Shown: positions 635-29,263 of the stretch, piece by piece
How positions within the stretch are numbered: position 1 is the first letter of the stretch
Layout of the letters: every line of letters begins with the position of its first letter
NCBI RefSeq assembly: GCF_000003605.2
Contig: NW_003149765.1
Location: 237,703 to 266,994, forward strand
DNA: 29,292 nt
Origin: Saccoglossus kowalevskii
Lineage: Eukaryota; Hemichordata; Enteropneusta; Harrimaniidae
Direction of reading: 5' to 3'
Notes under the pieces: model-generated
The model's database searches: none
What the model was told of the DNA's origin: nothing
Seen by the model: only the letters and a program-made list of their open reading frames with translations
Made by a program: the position numbers and the translations under genes

Positions 635-787
635 CTTCAATAATATTTTGGTGTTGATAACATCACCGCTTTCAACCATTGCTAAAAATTCTGCTTCGGG
701 AGGGGCCAGTCCATCTTTCCCATTTGCAAAATAGGCCCACTCCTTGGTTGTTAATTGGCAAAGATCGCGTACGTCTGAATTCGCCAT
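635..787 (-). CDS. TRPC-like channel, gene A, exon 1 (5' end only)
   Basis: The exon has 51 codons, starts MANSDVRD and stops at a GTAAGC donor in phase 0. It is the N-terminus of a TRPC-type channel. Residues 28-50 carry the start of the first ankyrin helix pair (APPEAEFLAMVESGDV), comparable to the AERQFLxAVExGDY-type start of known TRPC proteins. Exon 1 of gene B has the same length, phase and most residues, including TTKEWAYF and FLAMVESGDVI. The ATG context is also shared: both read ACTCAACATGGC with similar bases upstream, which supports this start. The rest of the gene is off the window to the left. It could be a fragment, but the intact frame, donor and 5' context argue for a live gene. 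Confidence 0.8.
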
Positions 788-919
788 GTTGAGTTTTGGT
801 ACCGACTGTCGGGTTAGGCACTAGAATTGGTGAATCCCTCGTAGTTCTCACTTGACACTGGTTGGATCAGTCAACGAGTCAACAATTTGTCAAAGTGTAT
901 GCTTTGGAAAGTGAATGCG

Positions 920-927
920 ATTTGCAT
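920..927 (-). promoter_or_regulatory. Octamer (POU-type) motif upstream of gene A
   Basis: The minus strand reads ATGCAAAT, the canonical octamer bound by POU-homeodomain factors, about 133 bases upstream of the gene A start codon. Near gene B, at 16321-16334, the minus strand reads GATATGCTAATTAG, which contains the one-mismatch variant ATGCTAAT about 220 bases upstream of its ATG. The match is seen; a regulatory role is inference, since such 8-mers arise by chance in AT-rich DNA. Confidence 0.25.
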
Positions 928-1669
928 GTCAATCAAGCATTTCTTATTTTTTCCAACCACGAGTCAATGTTGCTGGTCATATTGATATATATTACTAAGA
1001 ATGACAGGTGTATTTTAGAATCGATGTTTAATTCTATATGATTACAATATTTCAAATGCATTGTTTGCATACATACTTTAAAATAGAGAGTTACTGGTTG
1101 TATTTATGCTATGTAATCAGCAATATCGGTTGAATATTCATTGATATTCTTTATAAATTTATAAATTATTTATAAATAAATACTCACTGCATCAGCGTTT
1201 CTATGCACTTATATTTTTGTGGAAATAAATGCTGAATTATTGTTGCTATATCTTAAGGAATTTCGATTAACACGATTATCTAATAAACATTTTATCATTG
1301 AATACTTAATTGAATATTTTTATTAGATTGTGTAATTTAAACTTGTTACTTTAAAAGTGTTGATTTTACTTACATCATGAATTGAACGCTCGATATGACA
1401 ATGACTATAATAAATATAAATAAAGTGTAATTTAAATGAAATTAACCGTATTGGGCGACAATAATATGCAAGTGAAAATGTTACTTGTAGTTTCCATTTC
1501 TTTATTTCTATTTTTTTAAAGGTTTTTGTGCCAGGCGATAGTTCCGGACATTGGATGTCATGTCACTGTTGTCTCTCCTGACGTTTTTTTGTATGTGCAA
1601 ATTGCAAGTGCTAATGCTGAAACATAATGCATTATTGCCACATAAGTCATATTCATGTTTGGGACTACA

Positions 1670-1961
1670 TGATAGGGCTGTGTGGCAATCCCTCTATCAA
1701 ATGGCAATTTAATGTCAATTAAATTAAATCAACCAGAGTCGGTCGAACACAATCACCTGTGGACCTTAACAAGGTTCCCCAAAAGTCGCATTCGTTAGTT
1801 AATGAATCTCGGCCAGTGGAATAGGCCTTTCCATTGAGTCTGTGACACACTCACCCAGGGTAGGGATCGACCCTTTTGATGTTCAGCCTAAGGAATGATT
1901 TGAACTTGGGTCTACTGGTCATGGGTCTGATGCAACAACCACTAGGCTACCCAATGACCGG
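1670..1961 (-). mobile_element. tRNA-derived SINE
   Basis: On the minus strand the head carries an A box, TAGCCTAGTGG (1939-1949), that fits TRGYNNARNNG. About 33 bases further is a B box, GTTCAAATC (1897-1905), that fits GWTCRANNC. This is the spacing of an internal RNA polymerase III promoter in a tRNA-like head. The body (about 1740-1890) runs on as unique-looking sequence with a moderate GC content unlike its surroundings. It ends near 1670-1740 in AT-rich, partly self-complementary sequence. No target-site duplication was identified, so both ends are approximate. A plain tRNA gene is excluded because I could not fold a full cloverleaf and the sequence continues well past tRNA length. Confidence 0.7.
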
Positions 1962-4041: not shown

Positions 4042-4179
4042 TTAGAAATACGTCATATCCGTAGATTCTTTGACGTCTTCGTCTTCCAAAGTATGAGCAG
4101 ACGTATAAAACTTCCGCATGATTTCCTTGTTAACGATTCCTTTCATCACCATATAACGATTACATAATATATTTATTAA
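4042..4179 (-). CDS. Gene B exon 9 (last exon, stop codon)
   Basis: Residues 626-670 and a TAA. The acceptor is TTTTTTGTAG. LINILCNRYMVM resembles the VMRNLVKRYVAAM segment that in other TRPC proteins lies in the calmodulin/IP3-receptor-binding region. The protein then ends DMTYF, which fits a class I PDZ ligand (S/T-x-hydrophobic). Confidence 0.85.
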   Translation of the reverse strand, partial: LINILCNRYMVMKGIVNKEIMRKFYTSAHTLEDEDVKESTDMTYF

Positions 4180-7100
4180 CTACAAAAAAAAATATTATAT
4201 GTTTAATCACAATATACAATCGTTTCTGTAAAACAAACGGCCTCAGAATAACTAATTAGAACTACCGCAATGCATGTTGCTTGGTATACTACATATACTA
4301 TATCAGATTTCTTAAGAATATGCCCTTTTATTGTGATTGGGGCCCTCTATAGTTGGGATCAGTATCTTTATTTCTGCTTCGCTTTGTTGACGTCGAGGTC
4401 ACTAATACGATAGTCATGGTTACTGGTTGACTTGTATTCAAATGAAGTATATTGAAGCTGCCTGGTGTATCATGTAGCACTAACATAGTCCTACGACTCC
4501 TATGGCTCGTTTTTGAAAGCCACTTACTGTGTGGCTCATACCTTGATATTTTTTGCGAGACAGGCATTATGTGATTTTGGATACTGATCTGTGTCTTTCG
4601 TGTGCAAACAATTGTGGTTTCAATGTTCTTGAGATTGAATAAGCGATTTCTTATGGTTGCACGTCGTGCCTGAAGAGATGCACAATACTAATAGTATCTC
4701 AGGAATCCCGTAAGAGCTGTAAGATGTGTAATTTTATTGTTAAACTTGTAATTTATTTTAGGCCGTCATATGAGTTCGGCATTCATTTTGTCAATATAAC
4801 CCTTCTTCATGCTCATTAAATGAAATCGGTTTGCGTTCTAACAAAAACAAAAGACTGTATAATGGGAGTATGCCAAATGAAATTTAGATTTTTTCTCCAT
4901 TGAATAATGTATGTCCAAAAGGTGGAATAATACAAATACTTAACTCACCTCTTCATAGAGTAATCCTGTACTATTTATCTGTACTTCTCTGTTGATATAA
5001 TTCGGTAAGCCTAACTGCAAATTTAAAATAATGCCCAGAATTAGACAACTGTCAACTTTTCGTATTATAAATATTCATTTGTTATTTTACCATGATCTTA
5101 CTTCAACGTCTTCATCTGTATTCCATCTAGGCCTATATCTATAAACACATTTTGTGACAATAGAAACCAAACACGAGACTGATGGGATAATGTTATACGG
5201 AGCTGGCAATACGGGGGCGTCTACATAATTCAACCATATCTTCGTCCTCATAAATGCATATTCAACCTTGATATTATCCTAAAAAATAAGCATATATTAA
5301 ACAAAGCAAAATGCGTTCTTATTGTTTTCAATCTCACATTGTTGTTACATCTTGTTATTTCCTCATAATTGTTATGATCAGTGTAACTTGGTGTTCTTGT
5401 AATCGAAATGCAATCAACTCGCCCAAAAATTGGTAGATTTGATTGTTGCCGTATTATCTATATTTTCAGACAAAGAATTTGTCATTGTTGGTCAGAGAGT
5501 AAAGTTAGAAAAAAGTTGAATGTGAAATGGAAAGTGTTGTGATTGAATTGCAATATTCAGATTGTTCAAATAATGTACACTATCATATTGTAGAAGCTAA
5601 TGTTATGACGTTGGACCAACATTTTTACATATGTTACTCAAAAATACTTTGATCGATCACCTTGATATTGTGCATTTACAATGTACATAACCGTCATATT
5701 GTTTGACCACCATTTGGCTGTCTTGGAAAAATTGTTACAAACTAGGGAATTTATTTTTCATTGAGTGCTTTAACTGATCAAGTTCCTGTTTTGTATTTAA
5801 GGTGTGTTTGAACATCTTCTCAATAATTTGTTTGGACTATATTTACTGTGTGACAAAGCATACAACAGAACTTCAATATATTCCGGCAATCACATAGACT
5901 ATTTCATACACTGATACAAGGGACACGTTTATATAAATTATATCAATATTATTATGCACAAAGATATTGTACAGGGCTGTGATGTGTTGTCCATGTATAC
6001 CATAATTGTGTTTTCTATTACTATTATTTATTTTACGTCATTCAGGTAGTGATCCGTGTCTTTGATGTTTGATGGTAGTGCTGAAACTAAAAGTTGTTGA
6101 TAATGGTTGAGCCATTGTAGTGTTAAGAGTATTGCAGTGTGTTCTGATAGGTCTTAGTGGAATATTCAATTTGTGTAGTTTTAGGAGACCATAGAAGTGT
6201 TCACCTGTATGAGTTTGTTTAACTACGAGGGGCGTTCAATAAGTAATGCCCCTGACCCACTTCCAGTTGTCTGATCTAGATGAAATTTTGCATGTGTAAT
6301 GATTTGCATCTCTATGGATTATGTTGCAAAAAGCTCTGAACTAATTGTGGTTTTTTATTTACAGGTATTTGAACTGAGTCAGGTGTTAAATGGAGCCAGT
6401 TGAGTGTCGCGCAGTAATCCGGTTTTTGTATTCGAAAGGACGCACACCAAAGGAGACTTTTGATTAAATGAAAGAAACTTATGGTGATGATGCCCCATCA
6501 TATGACCTTGTAAAACGCTAGCATCGTGAATTCAAACATGGCCGGAAGTCAGTGAAAACAGCTCCCAGACCTGGTCGTCTCTCTTCTGCTATTGATGAGG
6601 CATCTACGCGTCAAGTTGAGGCAGCCATTTTGGAAAATCGATGCATTACTGTTTGCCAAATATCCAAAGATGTAAAGATTGGTATAGGGTCTGTGGAAAC
6701 TATCATTCATGACCATTTGCATATGCATAAGGTGTCTGCCAGGTGGATTCCCAGGTTGCCCACACCTTTCAAGAAGCAAGAACGCGTCGAGTGCTCGGGA
6801 ATGAATTTAGAGATGTACCAAGAAGATGAGTCAAAGTTTTTCAAAAGACTGATTACACAGGATGAAACTTGGGTCCATCACTATGATCCAGAGACCAAGG
6901 CCCAGTGAATGCGGTGGAAGAACTTGGACTCACCACCTCCAAAGAAGGCAAGGGTGCAGCTCTCCTCTGGCACGGTCATGGTCACAGTCTTCTGGGACAT
7001 GGACGAAGTAGTGATGACAGATTTCAGGACAATTACAGGAGCCTATTACGCTTCACGTTTGATGAAATTAAGAGAAGCTATCAAAATCAAAAGGCGGGGC

Positions 7101-10100
7101 AAGATCAGCATAGGTATCCTCCTCCTGCAGGACAATGCTTCGGTCCACAACTCGCATGTCGCCATGCCTCTTACTCTCCTGACCTTGCACCCTCTGACTT
7201 TCATCGCTTCCCAGTCATTTTTGAAAAGAAATCGTTTATTGTATAAATCTTATCTTGATAGAATTTACAGTGCCTTCCTTTACATCTTACACGCAACAGA
7301 GCTTGAGATAAGTCATTAAAGTTATATTCACTGGTACAATACGTCTAAAGGGTTTCCTACAAAATACAAATGAGCGTGCCGAAGCTTATGGGAGAACGGG
7401 TCTGAACAATACAAATGCTACCATAGAACACAGTATTTATCTATTAAAAACATGTTTTGCTGTTGCTACATGTGTTTTGAAGCAGAAAACATACCACAGC
7501 GTGTTTTCCAAGAGTAATATGCTCACTTTATTTATGAAGTAATGTTCTACTCACCTTCATCCGTGCATAAGTATCAGACATCATGGCAACGCAGATATTA
7601 ACCAACACGAGCATACAGAGAGTTCCAAAAGATGCATAAAGTATAAACCCTATTGCTTTGTACATTGATCTCGCATCAAGTACACCCTCATCTCCGGCAC
7701 CAGTAAGATTAAAAACCAGGTCATTCGCTTTCAAACTTTCCGTTGGATTGCCTCCAAAGATTGTTGTGACCAGAACAACAAAAGACGAAGGAAATCTGTG
7801 TCCCACAAAAACAAATAGTATTACAATACTATGCATAACACGATTTCTCTGTCAAAGAAGGTTTAAAGGTACTTATGGTGTGGAGTCTCACTGCTTTAAC
7901 TCAAGACAGATATTGTGTATGCTTCGTGGAAAAGCGCTTCCAAAGAATTAGTAATGAACATGTATAGTATGCATGCATTGTTTTGGTCAGTTTATAACGG
8001 CTCATAATTAAAAGCAGTTATTTAATATCTTTATCATTACAAGTTAAAATGAATCTTGCTAGTAATTATAACATAACAAGTCATGTTTCTTGAATATATA
8101 TTCTCTAAAACCGATGATAAAGAGATATGACTATGACAATGTGTGATTGTATCGTATTTTATCTATGGTTGACATATTATTGTTCTTTTTATATCAATCA
8201 CTATGGAAAACAGTTACCAGCATGGATTCTTTAGTCCAGGTACTTTTGTACTCTCGCTATCACACTGACAAGAATGACAATAAAACACAAATGGAGCAGT
8301 AACGTATGTATGTATGTATTTTTCAGATCGGTGCTGATATTTTGTATGCATGAGGGAGATACGACTACAAATACCTTTATATATGTCGGAAATAATGCGA
8401 GACACGGTTGGCAATCAGGTAATTGAAGTGGCGGGGTCTATATGTACACAGTTTCTGTTTTATAATGTAATACCAAAGATTTCTAGACAATGAAATCCGT
8501 CAAAGTACAATCCTTGTTTATCATTGAATCATTAAAAATTATCAACGTCTTATCTTAAATATGCAATCAGCCAAGAATTGAAAGCACAGCTTTTTATGTT
8601 AGCATGTATGTTCACAAATATGTTAGGTTTGCATAATATCCAAACAGTATCAACCTTAATACAGCATATGTACATATGCTCAAATCGATTTGTTAGAACA
8701 TCTGAAGATGCGCCTGATGTGCTATTAGACTGAGCTTTGAAAGCAAGTCTCAGTTCTCATGCAGTTTTTTGACATGTCGTAACAACGACATAACACATCC
8801 AATACAAAATCGAGATGTTAGTAATCAGTTGTGATGTGACATGCCAAGAATGTGCTGAATGTGACCACGTTAGTAAACAAACGTAATGGCTTCTGAGTGT
8901 AAGATGAAATGATAAAATATGAAATTTCAAGAGTGGCTCTTCAAATACGAAAACATAAATGATATTTATAGAATAACATGAGTTGTCATCCAGTTCCGGA
9001 ACTAATACAAAATAATACAAAAAGGAAACGAACATAGAAATGATTATTTATTGATGACTTTAATTTGTCTAGACGTCGACAAATACAGAAATCAAGAATC
9101 TATACACAAGCAAGACCAACATGAAATTGACCCATTATTCAAAAAGCAACAACAAGAAATGAGCAGAGTGAAATGTGTTATTTGTCCAACACAATCAATA
9201 AAAGTATGTTTCAAATATAGCTTACTTTCGGTCTACCGTCATGTATTCAAGGCTTTATGATAAAGGTTGCCAAACATATTTGTTGGCATAACTTGGATTA
9301 ATCAGTGGAAATATTGAAAAAAATAACTTAAGATCATAAGATTTGAATACAAAGTATACAGTTTTTCATATTATATACATATATGTATATATGTATGTAT
9401 GCTATGATGTCCAGTTTGGTTTTGAAAATTCTTGGTAAACATCTTCTGGCTCAACTACACAAAATGCTGAAAGTTTTGAGAAGTACTACACGAACCATAA
9501 TTCATATAAAGCGTTTTTGCCCAACTGAGTGGACAACCATGTGAACAGTATCAACATCATTATGATCATTATGTAACATTATGCTGGGGAATTTTGCAAC
9601 TGCAAAACCCGTTTAAGGGAACATTGGGAAATATAATGCTATGCTAGAAATGCCTACTCCAAGATCATGAGGTACACACTGATGGCCAGAATTTCTAAAT
9701 GATAGTACAATTGAAGACATGCATTCCCACAAGCAGTATTCAGTGCATCTTACACATCCTAATGGATCGCGAGAGAAAATCGCAAGAAGAGTATTCACTG
9801 AATTTAATTAGGTAGTAATCTGATTTTTGTAGTCTTTACATGAGAACTCCTAGCAGCCTCCTAGCTTTATTTTCGCCCCAGCTTGGAATGCCCTCTCTGA
9901 ATTGGTCTTACACCCTATTGATCCAGGAACATTCAAAAGCTAAAATCTAAACTTGCACATTTCATTCAAATCACTCCAGAATGTGACATGGGCGCAGGCG
10001 GGGGGTGGGGGTCATAGTCAAAGGAGGTCTTTTACCTGACACAACATGATTTCAGTCATTGTGTAATTAAATTCCACTAATCAAACCCAAATTGCAATAG

Positions 10101-13100
10101 TCATATGGGGATTATGAAGGTGCAATGTATATTGACACATGATAAATTTGATTGATGATTAAAGCATCCACTCAGGTGTCTACATTGTGTTCTATATTTG
10201 AACATTATTAGGACTACAATAGTGGCTATACCTATGTGTGTGATAACAACGATGTAGAAAACTGCTTTCACAAATGCATCAACATATTCCCCAAAGTAGA
10301 TCTTCTATATGGCTTTCATAGGGAAATCCATAGTTTTCGATCATTATTCACCAAAATGTAGTTCCACTCAGCAAGGATTGTGAATTGTCATTTATTATGC
10401 TAAGTAGCTGACATGTTGGACGAAATATTTGAAAACTTGACGGCCATTTTGTTGTTTTTCTAATTTGATTGTCAAAATCACGCTTGCCAAACACTCAAAA
10501 TAAAGCATCCAGGAATATCCCCAAGTCATGTGTAAGCCAACTGGTAACATACAATGCCTAATGTCAACGAGGACATTTTCTGGGCATAAATATTCTATAA
10601 ATATTCTTTCCTATATTACATACTTTTTAGTCCCCGTTCGGACGAAGTCCGAAAACAGGGACAATTAAGTTGGGTACCGTCAGTCCGTCCGTGTGTCCGC
10701 CCGGTCACCCTTTGATCGAGCTCGTTCAAACTTGGTATACAGACAATGTATGATGACCTACACATGCGCGAGATTTTCGGCCATTTTGTTATTTTCCGTT
10801 TTTGTGCTGATTCCTCCATGAGATATGGCCTGATTCAGTTGAATACAATACCATGTTTTCTTTTGAGATTTGATAAAAATTGTCGAAATGACGGTCATTT
10901 TGTTTAATATCTTAAAATCAAAGTCTATAATGTGTCTGGAACTGTTTCTCAAGATGGCCGACTGGTAGCCTATACATCTCTCATCCACCTTAGAATCGAA
11001 TTGCAGTGTTATCATTCTATGTCAAGGTGTTTATTGTTCTATGGTAGTGACTCTTTCTGGGCCACTTTACCTATGTAATGTATTTCGGTAAATATTCAAT
11101 ATATGGATTTGTTTCCCTTTAACCTCATCATATGATTTCTGATGGAATGTCTATTGTTACGATGTCGGGTTATATCAATACATTAAATAGTGTGATCGTA
11201 TTGGATTGAATTTTTCAGTATAAAAAACAAAGTTACGACTTTTAGATTATTATCATTTGTCACACACCTTAACACTATTGTTTATTTATGAGTGAAATAC
11301 GTTTTTACACAGCATTTAACTCTCACTTGAAAGCTCCAACACTGCGTGACAATGTGTTACCCCGTATAAATATATATTACATTGTGTTGAGAATTCATTC
11401 TAGAAAAGTGATAATAATATTTTGCATATAAACAAGAAATAAAAAAAAGTATTTATGAGGGATACTCACTCGCTAAACACATTATTGGTACCAACACCAT
11501 CATACAGGTAGTAGAATCCGAGTGCAAACGCCGTTACAGTGTATAAAAATATGATCAGAAACTTGATGACGTCACTGGTCATTGCGGTGAAGATTAGTAG
11601 CATAGGACCAAGGTATAAAGAAAGGTAGAAATTCTCCAAGAATCGAAGACAAGCAAGGGTAAGAGTTAAAGTCGTCCAAGTTACCCAGAATAAGGTAACA
11701 TCCGGGTTGACGTATTCATCATTTAAAAAGCTAATAAGACGAAAGGAGATATCGGAGAGGAACGAGAGCAAGATTAGTAAATCCATATAGTTCCAAAAAG
11801 AGGTGAAGTAACATGTTAGTCCGCTAATCATCATTTCTCGAATTTCACCCAGGATGAGAGCTATGATAAAGATTAGAAGAAAAATTAAGAAATACTCATA
11901 AGCAGATTCGGAATAAAAGTTGTCATAAGGTTCGATGTTAAGAAAGATGACTAAAATAAGAAATTGAAAGTATGCCACCATTTGCGTAATAAATTTAGCT
12001 TTAGGGTTGTCCAACATTTTCCCCACCTGAGTACAAGGTGCTATGATATATGTGACAGCCATTACTGGCATTAGTATTACGTATACAAACAAACAGTAAA
12101 TACAGTACAGATACCACCACCAAAAGCTATTCTTACAATGCCATCCTGGTTGTCCCTTGTGCCAAACCTTTCTCAACACATTCTGACATTTGTAGTGTGC
12201 AATGAACTGGGAATAAACAACATATGTCAATTGTATAGTTGATTGATTAACATGCAAACGCAACACTGGATTGCTCAACGAGAGAGTTATTCATTGCGCA
12301 CTTTGTGAGTTATGAGCAGGATGTTTATAGAAATATCACTACTAAACATCATCTACATGTTCTCTTGCTATGTTCTATAATAATGAATAATGTTACAATT
12401 GGGTTATCCAACAACATGTTTGAAAACATATAGCAAATAGATAAAGGACATTTAAAAAACGAATTGACATATTTCTTCAAGGAGAACGCAAAATCCGTAT
12501 TGTGTATGTAAATTTTTCTCAACATGTCTTCACAACATGTCTTCACAACGAAAGACGAAAACAAAATAAGGTAACAAATAATTCCCGGTACACAGGAGCA
12601 TTTCCAGAAACCACATGAAGAAATTCACAAAAAACCTAATTCGGCAAAACTTGTGTTTGTGTTGTACATGTGTAATGTTTCAAAAACCTGGACAATTGCT
12701 ATGATTTTACCTCCTTATTGTGTTTGTGTGATAATGGCGACCCATGGTTCTACACACCTTTTTATGCTCAGTTGCTACGGCTTTAGTGACCACTTTTCCT
12801 TTCAAAAGAAGTTTGCTGCCCACTTGTTCAACATCATTGCATCCAAGCATCAAAGTAGATACCTCTTCAGAACACTCACAGCAATCAAGTAAAGCAAGAG
12901 TATACTGTTGTACCTTATCTTTCAGTTCAATATATCTTTCCTTGGTGAAAAAATACAAACATTACAATAAGATTCTGCACCGTGCAAAATCTACGTTTGC
13001 TGCAATATCCTTGATTTATGTGAGAATGCTGAATATTTAATAATGTAATTCAATACCACTGATGTCATTTGAATCTCTCTCACTTCTGTTACTCTCTGTA

Positions 13101-16100
13101 AATCGTTTGCTAGATCCATCGATGCCATCACTGGGTCACGGCTAGCGAGGGTCAGGTAGGCAGGTGAAGCCAGCCCACAATAAATGCTGTATCTCAAGTC
13201 ATCCTCCAAAATATGTTCTTCCCCTGAAATAATTACGTGTATTTAACACATTGTTACGCGTTAAATATCAAACGTGTGTGAATAAAAATATAGTGCAAGT
13301 GATTATGTGTTTTTGAACTGACCATTGCATATCGATGGTTTGGGAATACGTTTCACACCACAATCCAACAGCAATCGAACCATCTGGAAGTTGTTGCTTT
13401 CAGCTGCAAGCTGGATTGCCGTAACAGGTAACATATCACGCATGACAACGCAGTTGATGTCAAGTAATTCATTCTGTCAAAAAGTAAAAATTATCGGAAG
13501 ACATGCTAATAATATTACATGAACAATATACTTTATACTCTTTGTAATTTTAGATTAAAGTTATTGGTGGTTCTGTTGTGAAATACGGAATTTTATATCA
13601 TGTATACGACATAACTTTCCTAGATATTGATTCTCCAATTCGATTTGTTTTTATTATTCACTACATATTACGTTCCCACAACTTGTTTACTGATCGTATG
13701 TGTTTTAATATATGACACATTTTTATCGCCACATTAAAATCTTTTTAAGTGTTTCATAATTGATCAGATTGAATGTTGTTTTTAAATCTCAATTAATTTA
13801 CAATTCTACTGTTTAAAAAAAACAAAAACATTTTTACTGTTTGTGGTAAAACCTTTAAGGTGTCTATAAGCTTGTCCCCACCTTAAAAATATTTGAAGTG
13901 TTTATGTGTTTATAATCTTTATATTTATGAAAGTGAATATAATGAAAAAAACATGTAGTCTGTGCTTACACTAGTAAAGTGTTTCCACGAGGAACACTTA
14001 TTGAAAAGTTCTTATTATCACAAGAATTTTAAAAGTACTTTCAATCAAAAACAATCTGAATATTGAAACATGCTTGTAAAAGAAGACTCATTTAAAAATG
14101 TTTTTCACGGATAACATGGTAACAACAATCATCATTTTTGAAAGTGTTATTGAGCGAAATATTATGCGTTTTGCACTATTAGACAGTAGTCTTAGCATAC
14201 AATTAACAAATCAAATAATCAAGTTAGTATTTATCCCTATATAAACATTAAAGTACATATATAGTTGTTGTAAAGAATATTAATCTCACAAAGACTTATG
14301 TGCAGCCTAAAATAGTGTGTTAACTGAAATTCAAACCTTTCGTGAAACTGTAGAAACAATATTCAATAATTATAAATAATTAAACTTCAAAACAGATATG
14401 TAATGAATTGAAACAAACAAAAACATCATTAAACTCTTTCTTCATTATATGCGACCTGTCTCCAAACCACTCATAGTATAATACAAGTGTTGAATTAGCG
14501 GGCGCACGAACACAGGTTACTTTAACACGCAACATATACTAGTGTTCATCGTGAGCACCATCGTTTATGAAAGGTAGTCCAAGAAGGAATAGCAACTTGA
14601 ATTATTTTTCAATATTACTTTCCCCATTGTATTGTATTGTATTTATCCAATTTCTAAATAGCAGTTGAGTGGTTATGTATTGAGACATAGAGGAGCTCAT
14701 TATATGCGAATTGGCAAAGGTGTGGGTAATCACCACATTAGATGGAATTCGAAATTGAGACACCGCCAATAGAATAATAGCTCCGTAGAAAATGAACCTA
14801 ATGATTAGATCACAGGTAATTTACACCTGTTTAGCGTTGCATCATCCGGCTTGCTAGAGCATTAATAAAAACATCGAGCATGTTCCATTAATTTGGTTAC
14901 TAAACTCATGACAGGTACATGGTATGCAGGCTAAATTTTTGAAACTACTAAAATCAATACATTTATCGCTACATTCATAGTTTGTCTGTTGACAATGGTG
15001 ACGTATGTGGGCTACTAATAAATATGTTGCATACAGTCGATAATAGGCATTGCGGCTATTACAAATGAACACTTTTGTAGTCCGGTGTCTGAAGTACATA
15101 AAACAGATTACAAGAAAACGTGTTTTAGTTACGCTTGTGATATTGTGTACAAATGGTATACATACATAATTATGAAACATGTATAGTCAGATTTTTTAGG
15201 TTGAAATATTGCACATGTTTTCTGAAGGGCTTCGAAATAAAACGGTTTGGAAAAAAAAATGTTACTATTAATAACTTACTTGTATATGTCTTATACATGA
15301 ACACTCATGAAACATAAACACTTTTGAAACATGTATGGACAGATGTTTCAGGCTGACATTGCATGTGTGTTTGTGCTTCAAGATAAAACAAATTGAAAAA
15401 AGTTGCATTTTTGAAGTGTTGCAAGTTTCAAGTTCATTTCACTTTTCAATTTTGTTAGCACGACTAGCATATAGTTGGATGCATTAATCCATATACATCA
15501 TAATGGCATATTTATGTCCCCGTAGACACTCATTGTTTTATTTCGGAAAAAAGTGTATTTACAGTTAGCTAAATTTTCATTAAACAATGTTTTAATAACT
15601 CCCCTAAACACTTTTTTTAAAAGTAGTGAAACCCTACTGTTTCGATAGCAAATACAGGTGTTTTATAAGATAATACATATATTTTTAACAGTATGTTTAG
15701 TGTGTTTTAATGAAAAATATATGTTGTATATGATGTTGAGGTACGTAAATTAATACATTATGAGCTAATAAGATTTTGAAGACGTGCATATAAGATGATA
15801 CGATCTAATTAACATATATGGTTTAGGAACTGGTCATTTGCACCCAATGACAAAACAATAGCTGTTCGCTGATGCTGTTATTATACAATGCAATTGTGAT
15901 GTGTGTTTAAGGAGTTGCCTTTAACAGATAATCATTAGAAAAACGTCTTACCTCCAATAACATTTTAGTTTTAATGACATCACCGCTTTCAACCATTGCT
16001 AAGAATTTAGCTTCGTTGGGTGCCGGTCCACCTTCCCCGTTCATAAAATAGGCCCACTCTTTGGTTGTCATTCTGCAAAGATTACATGCGTTCAACTCTG

Positions 16101-16384: not shown

Positions 16385-16804
16385 TTCAAGTAGCCAGTTA
16401 AATTATACCATCTTATAATACACTCATTGCAAGTTTGCAATTCATGATGTCGTATGATCTGCATAGCATTTGGAAGCCTTTTATTTTAGACAAAAAAATA
16501 GGTGTTTCATAGGTGCTTTCCCGTTTGTGGCAGCAGTACCTGTAACTTTCTACAATTTTTATTTTATTTTATAATTATTACCTTCAACATTCAAAAGAAG
16601 TTAAAATTATCCCGTGTCACCAACGAGTCATTAATCTTATGTACAGCTAATGAACATTTCATTCACCACTGAGAGCGTCATAAACAAACAGTATGGTAAC
16701 ATTGACATGCAATGGAATGATCTATGCTCTTCTCATGGTAAGGTCATTTTAGGTCTCATTCTATTTGCCCCAATAGCACTACAGGTACAAATTACGTATC
16801 ATAG
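16385..16804. repeat. Duplicated 5' flank, copy 1 (upstream of gene B)
   Basis: About 420 bases starting TTCAAGTAGCCAGT and ending near AAATTACGTATCATAG recur in the same orientation at 21577-21990. Long shared words include TTGACATGCAATGGAATGAT and TTTGTGGCAGCAGTACCTG. It begins 281 bases upstream of the gene B ATG. It may be the distal promoter duplicated with the gene, or a dispersed repeat. Confidence 0.75.
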
Positions 16805-17394
16805 TCAACACTCAAAAGGTAGCAACATTTTTGTATCTTCTTTGTCTAAGTCGAATCGTCTCTGTTTTTTTCACATTCATGACACTCTTCTTGTTTCTCA
16901 CTGCAGCTGGTAATGGGATATGGAAGCTGTGCAATGTCCAGCCAGAGAGTTATATTTCCTTAGTGTCTCCTGTATTGAGTGGAATACCATATCATTGACC
17001 TCTAAGCTTGTAGAGCTGTGTTCTCATAACTGCCATTTGCATCGTAAGAGCTAGCTGAAACTTAATTCCTCAAAACGCCTGAATCTCTTCTCTAAGTTTC
17101 CGGTGAATTTGAGATGTGATTTCTCCAAGAAAGCTCTTAGATAATCTCACCTGCATTGTTTTCATCAAATACATCCAGGATGTCCTACTGGTAGTCCTGA
17201 GTTGTTAGACAAATCCTTTTTCTTTTCTTTAGCCCTACGAGGCGAGGGAGTAAATGCCGATATCTCCTAGGCAGTAAAGGCTTAAACAAGCGCTTCTGCA
17301 TTGCAGGTCAAACTACAAACTTGTCAAACATGTGTTAAGAGTAAATGACAGATACTAACATTCTGTCATTATTTCCGTAATTTTTCTTTTTTCA

Positions 17395-18471: not shown

Positions 18472-19650
18472 TCAGAGATAAGTCATATGCGTACGTTCGT
18501 TGTTGTCATTTTCGTTTTTCAGGTGATGAACTGACATATAGAAATTGAATAATGCTCGTTACTCGAAATAAAAAACATTGTTTAAGCAGCTGTTATATAT
18601 AACACGTTCGCTGAGACATCATAACTCGTAATTTAGCTTCAGAAGGTATGGAAATTGATATATTATCGGTAGTTGATGACCTGATTGTGGTATCGAAACT
18701 AGAAATCAGGCTGCTAACTACAGCTTCTTGTAGACGTCTTTCAACTATCAGTAATTCATACAAAATTTAATTCCTCCATTCTGCATTGAATATTGTAACA
18801 ATTGTAAATATTGTATTTTTGTCAAAACAAGGATTGATTGGAGTAATCCTTTTTTGGTCTGCACGCTCTTGTGGAACTCCTTGTTATACTTACCCACAGC
18901 GTAGACATATGCTTATAGAATTAGACAACGTTCATTTCCTTATATCAATATTCCTTCATCATTTTCCGTTGGTCTTACCTCAATGTCTGACATTTTCACT
19001 CTTGGTAATCAATCGGATAGGACTATATTATATATACAGAGATGGCAGTACTGGTACATTGACATAGCTTAATCATGACCTCGTTCGCATAAATGCATAT
19101 TGAACTTTGACATATTCCCGGAAAAAGTGGAAAATAAACATACTTTAATAAAGGTTTACTGAAAAGTGAGTAATATACGCACTTTATATATTATATACGC
19201 ACCTTTATCCTTGTATCAGACATGATGGTCATGGATATATTAACCAACACGAGCATACATGGCCTAAGCATGGCAGTTCACACAATGTATCATCGTGTAT
19301 AATTTTACAGTCGCTATGTATGTATTTTTAAATATCACCTAGTAAATGGCAAATTTTCCCATTTGCTAAAGGTGTAAGGGTGAATGTTAATGGCCAGTGA
19401 GAACTGTGCACAAAGACAAACTAGTAGCATCATTTGCTGCAGACCTTATTTTGTAATCGATTCGTATTATGTGTTTAAGGCTAAGAATATTCATCTGGTG
19501 GGAAGAATGTTCACCTTTATCAACATTTTAGTTTTAGGAACATCATTGTTTTTAACCATTGTTTTTGGGCGTCAGTTCATCTTTCGCGCTCTTGGAATGG
19601 ATCTATACTTTGGTTTCCATTTTGCAAAGATCGCGTACGTTTTCTTTTCC
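18472..19650 (-). pseudogene. TRPC-like pseudogene D (remnants of exons 9, 8, 7, 6, 1)
   Basis: Pieces align by eye with genes B and C in the correct order. Exon 9 relic is at 18472-18565 (GATAAGTCATATGCG against GATACGTCATATCCG, then ATGAACTGAC). Exon 8 relic is about 18832-18898, exon 7 relic about 18979-19118 with deletions, and the 3' part of exon 6 is 19203-19262 (ATTAACCAACACGAGCATAC). Exon 1 relic is 19515-19650, closest to gene B, about 17 bases short and without the ATG. Matching intron sequence (GAATTAGACAACG) is kept between exons 7 and 8, so this is a duplicated and not a processed pseudogene. Exons 2-5 and the pore are missing. Confidence 0.75.
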
Positions 19651-21576: not shown

Positions 21577-21990
21577 TTCAAGTAGCCAGTAAATAAAACT
21601 ACATTGTAATGAATTCATTACAATTTGAAAAGTCGTATTGCATTATGATATCATATGATTTGCATACTATTTTGTTTTTGGCCAAATACATAGGTGCTTC
21701 AGATCCCTTTCTTGTTTGTGGCAGCAGTACCTGCAACTTTTCACCGTTTTTTTTATATAATATTTTATAATTATTACCCCCAACACTCAAAATGAGTTAA
21801 AATTATTCCGTGTCACAATGACGACAAGTCATTCATTTTATGTACAGCTAATGAATATTTCATTCATAGTGAGAGGTCATAAACAAACAGTACAGTAGCA
21901 TTGACATGCAATGGAATGATCATTGCTCTTCTCATTATAATAAGGTCGTTTTACGCTAATATCAATACAGATACAAATTACGTATTATAG
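21577..21990. repeat. Duplicated 5' flank, copy 2 (upstream of pseudogene D)
   Basis: About 414 bases collinear with 16385-16804, with small insertions and deletions. Shared words include TATGTACAGCTAATGAA and CATAAACAAACAGTA. Its place upstream of pseudogene D suits a segmental duplication carrying gene and promoter. Confidence 0.75.
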
Positions 21991-23359
21991 AAAACACAGA
22001 ACAGGCATATAGAGAATAATTTGTAAGGGTTTTCTGCCCATTCAATATATACTGCGTAATTCTTTGTTGAAAATGTGACACACCAGCGAGGAAACCGAGG
22101 AAGATAAACAGGACTCGACTAAAAGATAGAATACATACAGCAAACATTTGTTTTGTTTCTGTGGTAAAACAAGTTGTCACTAAATATAAATATATATTGA
22201 AAACATAAATATGGGCGTAATGTAATGTAATATAACATACACCACGAGCATTTCGAGTCTGATTCTGATTTGAAACTAAATCGTCAAACAAATATTTTTG
22301 TACCACAAAATAGTGTCTATACAATATTCTGACATAGAAATGATAGGTGCTCACTAAACTATGTGAAAAGTCAGAATATAGTTAAGGGTATTACGGGGTT
22401 GTTCTCATGTAGTTGATGGGGTAGTTTTTGGATTTCTACATAATTGCATGCTGCAAAGTGAAACTGAAAGGAATAACTTGCATCAATACCAAAGCTTCCC
22501 GCCGTGCTTTTGTCAAAAAACAACAGCAAACAAGTATTGTTCAAACGGAAGATGATAGACAGGCAATGAAATACGACCACAACGGAGTGTCGAATTGGAA
22601 AATGATTTATTGGTTGCCCTTTATGTTGAGCAATCATTTATGAAAACACATAATAAGATCACTCACATGGATTATAACCAATCAGCCTGTGTTTCAGAGA
22701 TTACATTTATAAGGATGCATTAAATAAATGTGTATTCGTAATGTGGTTACACATTTGGAGACATAGATGTTTGCTATCAATATGACTTTGGTTTCAATTT
22801 GTCAAATATAACGATTTATACAACAATTATACTCTTAAGCATATGAATGTACTGCTATGAACTACTTAACACCCTGATTCTTACCAAGTGAATATGTATG
22901 CAAACCAACCTATTTAAAAAAAAGATTGACGATGAACCAAACGTGTTTACATACTGTTGACTGATACTATGACAAATAATTGTATATTATTTGTGCACTT
23001 GTCAAAACAAATCGCGACTAGCGGATGAACAAGAAGTTTATTCCTTCTAAATAGTGGTAATAATCAACCATGGAATTCAATAACATTTATATATTGATGC
23101 GATTTTACCAATGGCAATGAATATATATAAATGTATATCCTAATTATATATTGAAAATAGGTATATAGAAATTATATATTTGTTTCAGAACAAGTGTTCA
23201 TGAGTAGATATTGTACGTTCAAGAGAAGTGAGTTACAGTCAAACATGCAGAATAAGTCCCATTAGAGTCGTTATAATTTTTATTAGACCTGGATAACCCA
23301 CGCCCATATAATTAGTAACAAACATGTTACAAGCATTATTTATATCACATAATTAACTT
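21991..23359. other. Intergenic DNA and 3' flank of gene C
   Basis: The part just below 23360 resembles the 3' flank of gene B (GTCGTTAT..., CCTGGATAACCCA against CCTGAATAACCCA), so a 3' UTR is shared. An open frame at 21962-22354 (minus, 130 codons) and overlapping frames at 22371-22643 have no domain I can name; codon and residue usage look like chance frames. Confidence 0.55.
23037..23042 (-). terminator. Possible polyadenylation signal of gene C
   Basis: The minus strand reads AATAAA 318 bases past the stop codon of gene C. The hexamer is common by chance in this composition. Confidence 0.3.
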
Positions 23360-23500
23360 TTAGAGATACGTCATATCCGAAGGTTGCTTGATGTCTTCTT
23401 TATCTTCCAGAGAATGAACTGACGTTCGGAAATATCTCATGACATCGTCGTCCACGACTCCATTCACCATCAAATACCGAGTACATATTATATTTATTAA
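23360..23500 (-). CDS. Gene C exon 9 (last exon, stop codon)
   Basis: 46 codons and a TAA, from LINIICTRYLMV to SDMTYL. The acceptor is TTTCTTGTAG. It has one codon more than gene B. The last bases before the stop (GGATATGACGTAT) are identical in both genes, so the C-terminal motif is under constraint or recently shared. Confidence 0.85.
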   Translation of the reverse strand, partial: LINIICTRYLMVNGVVDDDVMRYFRTSVHSLEDKEDIKQPSDMTYL

Positions 23501-26500
23501 CTACAAGAAATCAGACGTTTGATGTTACACTATATTAAGTCGGCCAAAGAGTAACCAATTACGACCACGGTAAGGCATGTTGTATTACAGCAAGTAAAAG
23601 TTTTTCCTAAATGTGTTAAGAAATATCGGTATTTATTTCATCAATACGCTCTATAGAATAGAGCGTCCAACGTAAACACTTTATAGTGAGAGTAATACTA
23701 CTTGTCGCTATTGTCCGCCAACCTTCGATAGTGGATATTTTTGTTCAATATTTCCCTAGGCAAGTGCTGTTTCTTCAATCCAAACAAGACATGTTTACCT
23801 CTTTTTTTGTTCTTAACAATGCTCGTTTATACTAGTTACGTTGTTGTCAACAATGCCAATTTACTTAGACAAAGTTTTTCGGAAGTAGGTTATTTTCAGT
23901 TAAAGTTGAAGTCATCGTTCCTGTGGGTCTCGGAAATTCACTGGAACCTCGACCTCATATAGGTAAAGAACTACCACAAGCGTTTTTGTAGGCGTACTTT
24001 TAGTATCAGTTATACTATTTTTGGGGTCAGTGAACACACTTTCGTTTGAAGAGAGATTTTCCTTAGCCTTACTAAGAAAGTACTCTCCCTTTACTCAGAA
24101 CCGAACCTAGTTTACTAGTTTGTTTTTGTTTGAACATTGCCCGTATACAAGGCATGTACTTGTTTCAAAGAATACCCGTAACTTTCCGCTCGCAATTTTA
24201 AAATAGAACATTCAATGAGCAGTTTGGATAGACGAGCTGTGTGAATGTATAGTCACTCGGAACGAGTTCCATACAAAGAAGTGTTACGTAAAACACGTTT
24301 GTGTGACAACATAACCCGCGACGCCACAGTAGAATAAACATCTAGAAAATAATATTTATTGTATCAATCTAAAAAAGAGACTGTTGACTCCAGTTAGTTT
24401 CTCGTAGACGTCTCTTAACTATCAGTAATTTGTAAATATTTAGCTCCTTTGAATATTGTATGCGTCCCAATAGAAAATTAGTAATTTTGTTGCCAAAATA
24501 ATGACGTAACTTACCTCCTTGTAGAGTAAATCTTTGTTTGTTTGCGCTCTTCTTGTGGCATCTTTTGGTACAGTTAACTGCAGATTAGACAAATGCTTAG
24601 AATTAGACAACGTCATTTGTTTATAATAAACATTCCTTCATTATTTTCCGTTGGTCTTACCTCAACGTCTACATTTGTACTCGAACTATAGATGCTCAGA
24701 AATCTTTTGATAATGGCAATCAAACAAGAAACTGATGGGATGATATTATACGGAGCTGGCAGTACTGGGGCGTCAACATAACTCAACCATATCTTCGTTC
24801 GCATGAATGCATACTCAACTTTAATATTTTGCTAAAAAGGTTGAAAAAAAAATCATGTTAAAGATGTGTTAAACGTGCAAACTCTGCTATGGCATAATAT
24901 AATGTTATTCTTGTCAAGAACTTAATGCTTTATTTAGGAACATTAAAATTGTGTGTGCTGACAATTTTCCTAATTTTGATACACTACCATCAAAATGTTA
25001 TTTAATTACTGCAACATATTTTCCAAACATAGTAAAACACTACTGTATCGATTATAAGAGCATGTGCTTGAAACATGCGCATAGCGGTGCATTAAATATA
25101 TAAGTGTACCTCTACGTACCTTTATCCTTGCATAAGTATCAGACATCATGGCGATGAAAATATTGACCAAAACGAGCATACAGAGAGTACCAAAAGATGC
25201 ATATAATATAAATCCCATTGCTTCGTACATTGGTCCTGCATCGAGTATACCCTCATATCCGGGACCAGTGAAATTGAAATACAGATCGTCGGCTTTCAAG
25301 CTTTCCGTCGGATTGCCTCCAAAAATCGTCGTTACCAGAGCAACAAAAGACGATGAAAATCTATATGATGGGAAAATACACAGTGTAAAAGAGATAAAGT
25401 GAATGTGTGCATTCTTTTTGCGACATTGTCAATACACAGTAAATGGAAGAAGAAGGGGCAATGTGATTTGGAAGAGGATGATAACGTATGTCCTCAATGA
25501 CTGCAGGTGTACTGATGATGTATTGTGTAGTTTCGGTATGTGTTTTTTTTCCAAGTGACTGGAAGCATTTGTTTGGAGTTTGGAGGGAGAGGTTAAATCT
25601 TTAGAAAATTTTAGAAATTCCGGGATGCAAAATATGATTGACATCATTGTGTATTCAGGTTTGTAGATTCTACCATTTGCATATTGTATCCATTTGCACA
25701 TAAAAGTAATACGTCTTTGTTTTTTTCAAATAGTTTTTTTTTATCTTCAGTATTTCTCACTTTGTTTTTAAATTCTAATTTAAACTATTTGTTAATACCT
25801 AATGAGGTTTTTGTATACACACATTGCATCCTTGTATAATTCCAAATCACGATTGACACCACAATTTCGGAATTTCCAGTATTATACTAATTTAATCATT
25901 CTTACACGTCTTACACTGCTATGAGCGCGAATTTCTAGATTTGTGAACTCGATTATGTCCTCGGATGTATCCCCTAAATTTGCCTGATTCAAATAAGTCG
26001 ATCGAAACAATGATCTTAGTAAATTGGGGTCCTATTTCTGGTGGATGGTCATATCTGTAATTGATACACTCGTTGTTAATCAAATATGGTCGCTCTTGTT
26101 AATTGATTGTCGATGATAGTGAGATGTCACAGACAGTAAAGTTATATTCTTACACGTTGTACGAATGTGGGGCCATATTTTGTATGTGAACTATTTTTTT
26201 GTGACCTGAAATAGATAAGGGATAATCAAAGTTGAAATTTTTGAAGCAGCGATGAGTTTTAACGTGATATCTCTTTTTGGCCCTGTGTTTCCAGATTCAC
26301 GTGTTTTTGCGCTTCAGTTGATGATGTGCGCCCTCAATACAATTTAGATGTACTTCTACGAGAGATTCGATTTAGATATTTGCCGCGGGCGGTGTCTATT
26401 TATTTTGAATATATTGCTTTGTTGACTGCAATATACACATTAGGCAATATGTCACAATTTTGTTGATAGATTTAATCATGATTTTTAAGCAGAACAAATA

Positions 26501-29263
26501 ATTATTCACAGGCGAATTTCAAATTTAGAGTTTTGTGTAATTGAAACCGTAATAAGTAATCATAATTCCCTCAGTGATCAAAGGGTTGTCGGGTCGCTGG
26601 CTTTGAGGGAGTCACGTACATCACAGTTTCCTTTTGATGGATTTTTATCATTCGACCGAGCAAACTAAAATTACAGTTATTACTTCACTCATATTAACAC
26701 TGTCAGCCACTGACAGACTTTTGAGTTGGCGATACCAGTAAATGTCCTAACTCAGTAAAAATTAACCGATTCACAAAATGTTTATAACTACAAATTTAAA
26801 AAAAACGAGAATGAAACAGTGTTTTTACCGACTTGAGTTTCCATTTACGTGCATTCACAAGTCCAAAAACTCAAGCAAATTATTACGGAAACAAGATACA
26901 GAAAGACACTTCAACCACACGACCAAATAATATACTATTTTTGACAAAATGTACATCATTTAATTATAACAACAATTGGTAAGTATGGCTAGGTTGTATT
27001 ATTAAATATTATAACTAGTTTTGAAGTTTTATATTGTAATCATTTGTTTTGTCTCGGACTTTGAGAGATATTTGTTATTTATTAGTACAGTGAATTATTT
27101 TGCACTGCATTTAAATCTTGAGTAATGTAGCACGGCGTGGCAGTGAATAATTCTTATAAATATTGTATTATCGTGACTGTTGGCTAATTATATCAAATGT
27201 AGTTTATTGTCATTTATTTTGGATTGTATGTGAGTTTGTATGGCATTACCTAAATTTTCGTTCATAAGAAAAATTCATTTCTATCATGAAAACATTATTT
27301 TATGTTTATGCAAAGTAACTGGTCTGTGGCACCCTTTTAACATGGGATACGCGAACACAATAACAAAGGTTGCACATGTAAATATACCATTGTTTGAAAT
27401 AATTCTTTTGACCACATCAATTGTAATCGACCTATATGCAACTTTAGAATTTGATAAATGCGATAGTATTATACTATATATAACCGAGAACACGTTGTAT
27501 TGGCAAAACAGGAATTACTTACTCGCTAAAAACATTGTCTTCACCAAAGTCTTCGTACAGATAATAGAATCCGAGTGCAAATGCCGTTACAGTGTATAAA
27601 AATATGATAAGAAACCTGATGACGTCACCAGTCATTGAAGTGAACATTAATAGCATGGGCCCAAGATAAAAAGAAAGATAGAAATTTTCCATAAATCTAA
27701 GACAAGCAAGGGTGAGAGTAAAAGCCGTCCAAGTGATCCAAAATATGTACACTCTGGGGTTGATGTACACATATTGAAAAAGACTAATAAAACGAAGACA
27801 GATGTCAGCAAGAAACGAGAACAGGATTAATATATTCATGTTGTTCCAGACAGAGGTGAAGTAATGTTTTCGTCCACAGATCATCATTTTTCGAAGTTCA
27901 CACCAGATCAGTGCAATGACATATATTAGGAGAAAAATAATGAAATGTGCATATGCAGATTCATAATACAAGTTGCCATCAAGCTCTATGTTAAGCAAGA
28001 TGACTAAAAGCAGAAATTCAAAGTAAGCCACCATTTGCATTATGAATTTGGCTTTAGGGTTATCCAGAATTTTCGCCACCGGAGAGCAAGGTGCTATGAT
28101 ATATATGACGGCCAACAGTGGCATTAGTAACACGTATACAATCAAACAGTATATGCAGTACAAAAACCACCACCAAAAGCTATTCTTGCAATGCCATTCT
28201 GGCTGTCCCTTGTGCCAAACCTTCCTCAACACGTTCTGACATTTGTAGTGTGCTATGAACTGTGAATATTAATAAAAAAATGGTAAAATTGATTCTGAGT
28301 GTCACTTATACTTGGTAAAATCATAAGATATTAAGTTCAGTGACAGACCTTTCCGCTTATTCTCAAATACAAAAATGGCACACTTTTTATGTCAAAATCC
28401 TTATTACACAATGGCGTAACAAACAAACACGCATAAAACAAACATGATAACAAGTTCTTTAGCAAACAATTCAGTTTTCAGTAACAATTACAACAATAAC
28501 ATATATTTCATACATACATATATACCCCATATAGAGATAGTCTATAATATTGTTTATGTGTAAAGTTTAAAATAAACGGTTAAACTATTATGATTCATCA
28601 TATTTGAATGTTCGGATTTGCTGGTCGTTATTTGCACCTTATTCACGGGTGGTAATGACCAGTCATTGTGCTACATACCTTTTTATGCTTAGTTGCTATA
28701 GCTTTGGTAACCACTTTTCCTTTTAGCGGAAGTTCGTTTTCCAATTGTGTAACTTCATTGCATCCAAGAATTAACGTAGATACCTCTTCGGAACTTTCGC
28801 AGCAGTCAAGTAAATCTAAAGTATACTCTTGTACTTTATTTTTCAATTCAATATATCTTTCCTGCGTTATGATGTAAGGAAAATTCACATATATAGCAGT
28901 GTGGTCGTTCAAATCGTTAAAACTGCATGTTACAAAATAATCTAAAAAATTATCAACACTAAACATGATATTATTAACAAAGAATTAATGTTTTAGTTGG
29001 ACTGCGAATTACACTGTCCTACGCTAAGTGCCAAGTCTGCTGTAATAACTGTTATTGTAGTGAACATGATGGCTATATTATAATGTAATTCAATACCACT
29101 GATGTCATTTGAATTTCTCTTGCTTCTGTTACTCTCTGTAAATCACTTGCTAGGTCCATCGATGCCACCACAGGGTCACTGTTAGCGAGGCTAAGGTAGG
29201 CAGGTGAAGCAAGTTCACAAAATATACTGTATCTCAAGTCATCAATCAAAATGTGTTCTTCTC
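23360..29263 (-). CDS. TRPC-like cation channel, gene C (exons 3-9, 5' end off window)
   Basis: Paralogue of gene B, predicted subunit of a plasma-membrane cation channel. Coding exons (minus strand): 29263-29097, 28861-28679, 28259-27523, 25360-25120, 24831-24661, 24577-24515, 23500-23360. These give 566 residues from the linker helices to the stop. Exons 3-6 have exactly the lengths of gene B (167, 183, 737, 241); exons 7-9 differ only by whole codons. Signatures: LASPAYLSLA, SSEEV, FIAHYKCQ, LRF in S4, FVALVTTIFGG at the pore, NIFIAMMSDTY in S6, EYAFMRTKIWL at the TRP helix, final MTYL. The Ca2+-cavity positions read CELRK in S2 and WNNMN in S3, against GEIRE and WNYMD in gene B, so two acidic residues are lost. 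Exons 1 and 2, with ankyrin repeats, must lie right of the window. Confidence 0.87.
23501..24514 (-). other. Intron 8 of gene C
   Basis: 1014 bases. It contains a perfect hairpin at 23646-23666 (ACGCTCTAT, loop AGA, ATAGAGCGT). The plus-strand open frame at 23741-23962 has no recognisable domain. Confidence 0.6.
24515..24577 (-). CDS. Gene C exon 8
   Basis: 21 codons, LTVPKDATRRAQ to LLYKE, between ATCTGCAG and GAG|GTAAGT. It is more basic than its gene B counterpart. Confidence 0.78.
24661..24831 (-). CDS. Gene C exon 7 (TRP helix)
   Basis: 57 codons, QNIKVEYAFMRTKIWL onward, with LPAPYNIIPS. The acceptor is CTTTTTAG and the donor GAG|GTAAGA. It has two codons fewer than gene B, in the variable part after the TRP helix. 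Confidence 0.9.
25120..25360 (-). CDS. Gene C exon 6 (pore and S6)
   Basis: 241 nt, same phase as gene B. It encodes FVALVTTIFGG, a post-pore loop with an NFT sequon, and S6 ending NIFIAMMSDTYARIK. The donor is AAG|GTACGT. Confidence 0.9.
25361..27522 (-). other. Intron 5 of gene C
   Basis: 2162 bases. Open frames at 25429-25701 (minus), 27240-27599 (plus) and 27284-27493 (minus) show no recognisable domain. The plus-strand one runs antisense into exon 5. Around 26565-26612 short arms CCCTCA and TGAGGG could pair. I see no clear transposon. Confidence 0.6.
27523..28259 (-). CDS. Gene C exon 5 (pre-S1 elbow to S5)
   Basis: 737 nt, from FIAHYKCQ to NVFSE, donor GTAAGT. It aligns to gene B without a gap. 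S2 reads WCELRKMM and S3 reads VWNNMNILIL. The S4-S5 part (LTLACLRF, FYLSFYLGPML, FLYTVTAFALGFYYLY) is almost unchanged from gene B. Confidence 0.92.
28260..28678 (-). other. Intron 4 of gene C
   Basis: 419 bases, AT-rich, with short CATA repeats. Unlike intron 4 of gene B, I see no exon 5 relic here. Confidence 0.65.
28679..28861 (-). CDS. Gene C exon 4
   Basis: 61 codons, ERYIELKNKV to ATKHKK, between CATAACGCAG and AAG|GTATGT. The open frame extends upstream to an ATG at 28966, but that part is intron. Confidence 0.86.
29097..29263 (-). CDS. Gene C exon 3
   Basis: Linker helices with SIFCELASPAYLSLANSDP. The acceptor is ATTATTACAG. The first two bases complete a Gly codon, as in gene B. 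It has the same ambiguous tandem donor (GTGGTATTG) as gene B. Confidence 0.83.

Follow-up and report, generated by a model that had tools for sequence, protein, structure and literature searches.

Canonical TRPC channels carry four N-terminal ankyrin repeats, an LFW motif that is typical of the TRPC pore helix and a TRP box with the motif EWKFAR (also present in the TRPC4 row of our alignment), and they usually act in signalling downstream of receptors. According to a review, in the portion drawn on here, TRPC is likely older than animals (PMC11526382). In the sections of the published surveys used, the Zhikong scallop has four TRPCs (PMC8539334), cephalopods have two TRPC clades (PMC13402157), and in the oyster Crassostrea gigas, whose TRP family includes tandem duplicates, TRPC3 is present seven times, no TRPC gene exceeding seven copies in any of the nine species tabulated (PMC8004665). 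Here we analyse a stretch of 29,292 nucleotides from the hemichordate Saccoglossus kowalevskii (G000:C3976:237703-266994; the whole stretch is called the window), in which an earlier note had described four related loci, A to D, as short TRPC-like channels in tandem. Very probably the window is a slice of a tandemly expanded array of short-ankyrin TRPC-type channel genes in which copies have been both gained and lost.

Gene B is the complete gene of the window. Its nine exons run on the minus strand from window position 16104 to 4042, encode a single frame of 669 amino acids and are separated by introns that are all GT-AG. Both Ion_trans (8e-15) and TRP_2 (9.6e-9) score above the curated Pfam cut-off. 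The exons, with transmembrane segments (S1-S6) placed by alignment to TRPC4, are as follows.

15952..16104, minus strand: B exon 1, first ankyrin part; 153 nucleotides, ends in phase 0
13323..13473, minus strand: B exon 2, ankyrin repeat, with alignments both to TRPC4 37-66 and to the part of TRPC4 from 143 on; 151 nucleotides, phase 0 to 1
13060..13223, minus strand: B exon 3, TRP_2 region; 164 nucleotides, phase 1 to 0
12758..12940, minus strand: B exon 4, linker helices; 183 nucleotides, phase 0 to 0
11470..12206, minus strand: B exon 5, pre-S1 to S5; 737 nucleotides, phase 0 to 2
7555..7795, minus strand: B exon 6, pore loop (TTIFGGNPT) and S6 (NICVAMMSDTYA); 241 nucleotides, phase 2 to 0
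5102..5278, minus strand: B exon 7, TRP helix (EYAFMR, compared with EWKFAR in TRPC4) and proline-rich stretch; 177 nucleotides
4949..5014, minus strand: B exon 8; 66 nucleotides
4042..4179, minus strand: B exon 9, with stop codon; 138 nucleotides

Copies of this gene were sought exon by exon in 130-380 kb of scaffold C3976, about 57 kb of which is N, and by a search of the whole genome (572 Mb, 4,830 contigs) with B, which gave 74 matches. Direct reading covered 130-380 kb, where copies inside gaps would go unseen, as might short relics elsewhere. Seventeen sites in the genome match the transmembrane exon at 33% identity or more. Fifteen of them lie within about 226 kb of C3976 (~131-357 kb), in the order K12 (+), K13, K11, K10, K9, K8, K7, K6, B, C, K5, K4 (all −), K3 (+), K2 (+) and K1 (−); the other two, on C4568 (46%) and C346 (33%), belong to further genes that have exons 2-7 in common with the array. 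Twelve of the 15 copies are oriented like B and three are inverted (K12 singly, K2 and K3 together). All nine exons are open in B, K12, K11, K7 and K8, eight are open with exon 8 unsure in K13, K9, K10, K6 and K2, and C is open in all seven of its visible exons; K4 is without secure exons 8 and 9, and K1 without exons 1 and 8. Two copies are broken, K5, in which exons 3 and 5 are frameshifted and a stop is present, and K3, in which exon 6 and exon 7 each contain a single stop, leaving 13 of 15 open in every exon found. Relics and fragments lie beside the copies, namely A, D, lone copies of exon 1 at 317 and 166 kb, and, at 130 kb, an exon 3 interrupted by a stop. The suggestion of the earlier note that the cluster might extend beyond the window, and that birth and death of copies are visible in it, is thus borne out, intact copies standing beside broken D, K5 and K3 and the fragments.

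Phases were read from the sequence itself for B and C; in the remaining copies the search accepted only exons in B's phases, which establishes that exons with B's phases, splice signals and open frames exist there and leaves room for alternative readings. Exon assignments that fell outside the available sequence or scored at chance level were dropped as spurious (exons 1 and 8 of K1, exons 1 and 2 of C, several rows of A and D, exon 9 of K5, exon 8 of K10, exon 6 of K11, exon 1 of X4568 and exon 9 of X346).

Runs of N start exactly at both window edges (226296-237702 and 266995-292104 of C3976), and we take the window to be one gap-free piece between two assembly gaps. Because these runs begin there, genes are cut at both ends, as had been proposed; the flanking runs hide the remainder of A and exons 1 and 2 of C. 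The other members of the window are listed below.

29100..29263, minus strand: C exon 3; 164 nucleotides, exons 1 and 2 would fall in the adjoining 25-kb run of N
28679..28861, minus strand: C exon 4; 183 nucleotides
27523..28259, minus strand: C exon 5; 737 nucleotides
25120..25360, minus strand: C exon 6; 241 nucleotides
24661..24831, minus strand: C exon 7; 171 nucleotides
24515..24577, minus strand: C exon 8; 63 nucleotides
23360..23500, minus strand: C exon 9, with stop codon; 141 nucleotides
635..787, minus strand: exon 1 of copy A (51 amino acids, MANSDVRDLCQLTTKEW...), open from ATG to GT; the rest of A would lie in the adjoining run of N
18474..19638, minus strand: relic D, with an exon 1 remnant (19638-19513), an exon 6 tail (~19263-19203), an exon 7 remnant with an in-frame stop (19111-19034), an exon 7 end (near 18988-18917) and an exon 9 remnant (18535-18474)
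16385..16819, no strand assigned: non-coding block on the 5' side of B, sharing 74.7% of 447 aligned bases with 21577-22005
21577..22005, no strand assigned: non-coding block upstream of relic D, partner of 16385-16819

All four loci were found on the minus strand where they had been described, but the count of at least three channels plus a dead copy has to be revised: the window holds two genes and one exon, A being an exon 1 and not a demonstrated gene, together with D, which is indeed a decayed relic. An exon 1 common to A, B and D holds for A and B (66.7% amino acid identity) and, in D, for a remnant. The visible exons 3-9 of C, all open between window positions 29263 and 23360, agree with those of B in every phase and, for exons 3-6, in length (164, 183, 737 and 241 nucleotides); exons 7-9 differ in length by 6, 3 and 3 nucleotides (177/171, 66/63 and 138/141). 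Across 563 codons B and C share 73% identity, with a synonymous divergence (dS) of 0.64 and a ratio of non-synonymous to synonymous divergence (dN/dS) of 0.23; leaving out exon 8 gives 74% over 542 codons, dS 0.62 and dN/dS 0.22. Because of these values, and because 13 other copies on the scaffold repeat the pattern, chance likeness of B and C is excluded. Of exon 6, D retains the last ~20 codons only, and no remnant of exons 2-5 was found in it.

The array genes are most similar to TRPC channels. Compared with the sequences in PDB, B matches TRPC4 at 2e-61, and 33 distinct TRPC-type sequences (32 of TRPC1/3/4/5/6 and one TRP-gamma, 2e-61 to 2e-38) precede any other kind; the next ranks are taken by a TRP-like channel (8e-17), another TRPC3 construct (1e-14) and the TRPM2 chanzyme (3e-14). 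The same 33 sequences come first for the divergent copy K9. The TRP-gamma entry (PDB 9vqq), which we take to be Drosophila-type, matches B at 7e-48 and K9 at 1e-32. Ion_trans (PF00520) exceeds its cut-off in all six proteins scanned (B, partial C, K12, K9, K6 and K2). With the reduced ankyrin region and the 15 copies on one scaffold, the earlier description as TRPC-like, short and tandem stands.

The departures from TRPC concern the ankyrin domain, the pore, in part of the rows the TRP box, and the tail. Only exons 1 and 2 precede TRP_2 in the array genes, and four repeats are not present: the spacing from FLAMVESGD to AIQLAAE is 36 residues in B as against ~109 in TRPC4, and the alignment covers TRPC4 25-93 and resumes at 143. 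Intron 1 measures 155, 165, 192, 206, 238 and 240 base pairs in K4, K9, K10, K2, K13 and K7, respectively (six of the 13 measurable copies), and 2478 base pairs in B. In a canonical TRPC gene of the same genome, on C814, an open frame with LELLLNHRSISLGDALL, taken to be a separate exon, aligns weakly to TRPC5 83-117 (E 0.07; TRPC accounts for each of the 11 hits with E of 1 or less), and the next frame joins ankyrin repeat 4, TRP_2 and the linker, the equivalent of which the array splits into exons 2, 3 and 4. None of the 16 rows aligned with TRPC4 contains LFW; 12 of them have (T/A)IFGG(D/N), the exceptions being K1 (LFTSDP), K4 (IFGSDS), X346 (VFGSTV) and X4568 (IFGADA). The TRP box reads EWKF(R/K/L/Q)R or EWKYVR in eight of the 16 rows (K1, K2, K3, K4, K9, K10, K13 and X346) and LWKFRR in X4568, while seven rows are of an EY type (EYAFMR, EYRFMR or EYTFMQ in six B-type rows, EYKYFR in K6). 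The last exon comprises 38-64 codons where located, and little of the protein follows the TRP helix. Since both four repeats and LFW were looked for and are lacking, we classify the array proteins, judged by their sequences, as TRPC-like and not as canonical TRPC.

The B-type copies show purifying selection. Among B, C, K12, K7, K8 and K11, dN/dS lies between 0.21 and 0.29 in 15 of 15 pairs (551-662 codons), with dS of 0.29-0.76. Exon by exon, dN/dS is 0.10 for exon 2 (five copies), 0.15 for exon 3, 0.16 for exon 6, 0.28 for exon 1, 0.54 for exon 8 and 0.57 for exon 9 (computed without C rows for exons 1 and 2). As the lowest values fall in exons 2, 3 and 6, the last of which encodes the pore and S6, the remaining ankyrin part is constrained as tightly as the pore. 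The most variable windows of exon 5 in six copies of the B-type clade are IEPYDNFYSESAYEY (0.52) and SDISFRLISFLNDEY (0.48), compared with 0.07 for the S6 window; on alignment to TRPC4, whose topology we assume here, they fall near the outer loops that link S1 to S2 and S3 to S4. Between B and seven cluster copies of other subfamilies, identity is 40-45% and dS is saturated. Because of this saturation, and of the dS values among the six B-type copies, the array is not young.

A tree of exons 3-7 with 22 rows unites the B-type clade (B, C, K12, K5, K7, K8 and K11; support 100/100), K9-K10-K13 (100/100, without a resolved inner order), K2-K3 (100/100) and all cluster copies plus C4568 (94/94). 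The neighbours K7-K8 and K2-K3 are sisters, as tandem duplication predicts. K12, at one end of the array, is the sister of K5 near its other end (97/96), and subfamilies interleave. The deep order of the tree is not relied on. The exons from C4614 and C4610 have long branches in it: three TRPC-like transmembrane exons (C4614:178943-179686, C4610:481211-481933 and C4610:606029-606736) are far more divergent, 21-27% identical to B, and hint at further odd TRPC-like genes.

The same data bear on whether the copies are working genes at all. A mostly non-functional array of decaying TRPC copies, with B and C open by luck, would account for broken D, K5 and K3, for the three further fragments and for the fast evolution of exons 8 and 9, but not for the 13 copies that are open in all exons located, and the uniformly low dN/dS at the dS observed is not expected of long-relaxed copies; we consider it very improbable. 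Even less credible is an origin of the copies as alleles or misjoins. Although the assembly is a gapped draft with N at both window edges, K12, K13, K11, K10, K9, K8 and K7 lie within 130-211 kb, free of any run of 10 N or more, and the most alike pair compared, K7-K8, has a dS of 0.29 and differing intron lengths. A haplotype or assembly-copy origin was accordingly rejected for this pair and, at a dS of 0.64, for B and C; haplotype error, which the earlier note had named among the things that would refute it, is made very unlikely by the dS range among B-type copies and by saturation beyond them.

How the array grew is less certain. The earlier note invoked unequal crossing-over, and in its simplest form this would be a single-gene process acting alone, with D as a hybrid of a B-type 5' and a C-type 3' part. 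D does sit between C and B, its 5' flank resembles that of B in a block with no other match in the stretch read, its 3' part resembles C (67.8% over 509 bases of exon and intron), and some sister copies adjoin. However, a run of N conceals the 5' flank of C, and D may therefore be a plain duplicate of C; moreover, the exon 1 region of D finds its strongest match in the lone exon 1 at 317 kb. The distance between the sisters K12 and K5, the interleaving of subfamilies and the three inverted copies are more than single-gene unequal crossing-over can explain by itself, and we regard it as a doubtful sole mechanism. A contribution is plausible, as the sister neighbours K7-K8 and K2-K3 fit it, but the mechanism is not established, and inversions and perhaps multi-gene block duplications are needed as well. 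It is unlikely, too, that the short ankyrin region is primitive, the family having branched off before TRPCs gained four repeats: the strong divergence of the family and the similar exon 2 of its next relative, on C346, would agree with this, but exon 2 aligns to two separate parts of TRPC4, a pattern expected from internal loss. Similarly improbable is a sensory receptor repertoire of short-ankyrin TRPC subunits, in which outer loops diversify around a fixed pore and S6 and the copies play a role like that of olfactory-type receptor arrays, perhaps with copy-by-copy expression; loop variability permits this and goes no further, because variable loops are common in channels.

Under the preferred reading, a tandemly expanded array of short-ankyrin TRPC-type genes with gain and loss of copies, each intact copy would encode a predicted subunit of ~620-670 amino acids with one to two ankyrin-like units (four in TRPC), TRP_2 and linker, S1-S6, TRP helix and a short tail. 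Such subunits would form tetrameric cation channels like other TRPCs, perhaps assembling mutually or with full-length TRPC, and the copies may have a role, downstream of receptors, in sensory or tissue-specific signalling. The family would descend from a TRPC of full length that lost, in frame, the coding sequence for approximately ankyrin repeats 2b-3, and the array would have grown by tandem and block duplication with inversions and shrunk by decay.

Several observations weigh against this reading. Transcription and splicing of B and C are predicted from sequence. Exon 8 is securely located in only six of the 15 copies, and neither exon 1 of K1 nor exon 9 of K4 was found. TRP_2 (PF08344) exceeds its cut-off of 27 in three of the six proteins (B, K6 and K2) and falls below it in K12 (26.6), K9 (24.4) and partial C (26.1). 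An ankyrin model passes in K9 (Ank, 25.5 against 21.1) and not in B, K12, K6 or K2, and K9 also passes the polycystin-channel model PF08016 (26.7 against 22.4). A hidden exon for ankyrin repeats 2-3 was sought with the C814 TRPC probe, which gave no match below E 0.8 in 130-380 kb, a result of limited weight because the probe itself has weak similarity to TRPC5. Lastly, the pore residues are unlike those of TRPC, so that ion permeation is not assured.

A number of further features were noted. Just 5' of B exon 1, window 16148-16342 matches the regions upstream of exon 1 of K5 (69%, 199 bases) and of K12 (73%, split into two segments), and is possibly a common 5' untranslated or promoter region. 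Intron 6 of B carries, at 6522-7319 on the plus strand, a transposase remnant that was seen as an open reading frame and is presumably mariner-type. Between A and B, at ~1700-1960 on the minus strand, the sequence resembles by eye a tRNA-derived short interspersed element. A candidate alternative last exon in C and D (window ~24446-24372 and ~18763-18725) was kept out of the gene model; the two are 69-75% identical over 12-13 residues and had no other match below E 0.3 in 130-380 kb. An Rfam scan of the window gave no match at the gathering threshold. Elsewhere in the genome, closely spaced Ion_trans matches at C2593:382846-415819 and C2510:115486-124016 are possibly other channel arrays or long multi-domain channels. 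On the mitochondrial contig C4830, where genes were named by reading translations, COX1 lies on the opposite strand to COX2 and ND1, and its 513 codons include no AGA or AGG; conserved Lys positions carry AAA, positions assumed to be Met carry ATA, and TGA reads as Trp. A lancelet was weighed as the source of this contig, but the gene orders drawn from PMC2034537 disagree. Models for molluscan haemocyanin and arthropod cuticle gave no match; as their controls gave none either, this rules nothing out.

In comparison with TRPC4 and TRPC5, the array proteins align from the last ankyrin repeat on, sharing the TRP_2 region, the order of S1-S6, the S6 core (N-x-x-I-A-M-M) and the TRP helix with the proline-rich stretch downstream of it. 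They are without ~73 residues of the ankyrin domain, their tail is much shorter, the SLFWSIFGL of TRPC4 is mostly replaced by TIFGG(D/N), and the cysteine-rich RCNCVEC stretch of the linker is absent in B and K8. The oyster offers seven TRPC3 copies, compared with 15 transmembrane-exon copies in one array here, and the part of that report used does not describe a shortened ankyrin region (PMC8004665). Among the titles and abstract openings covered by a literature search, in which subscription journals were thinly represented, so that this is not proof of absence, no comparable TRPC array or two-repeat TRPC was announced. TRPC is usually a small family, in which an array of fifteen would be unusually large. 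As natural variants without about half of the ankyrin domain and with a different filter motif, its members bear on which parts of TRPC gating and assembly need, and the array as a whole offers a case of birth and death in a family of ion channels, not of G-protein-coupled receptors.

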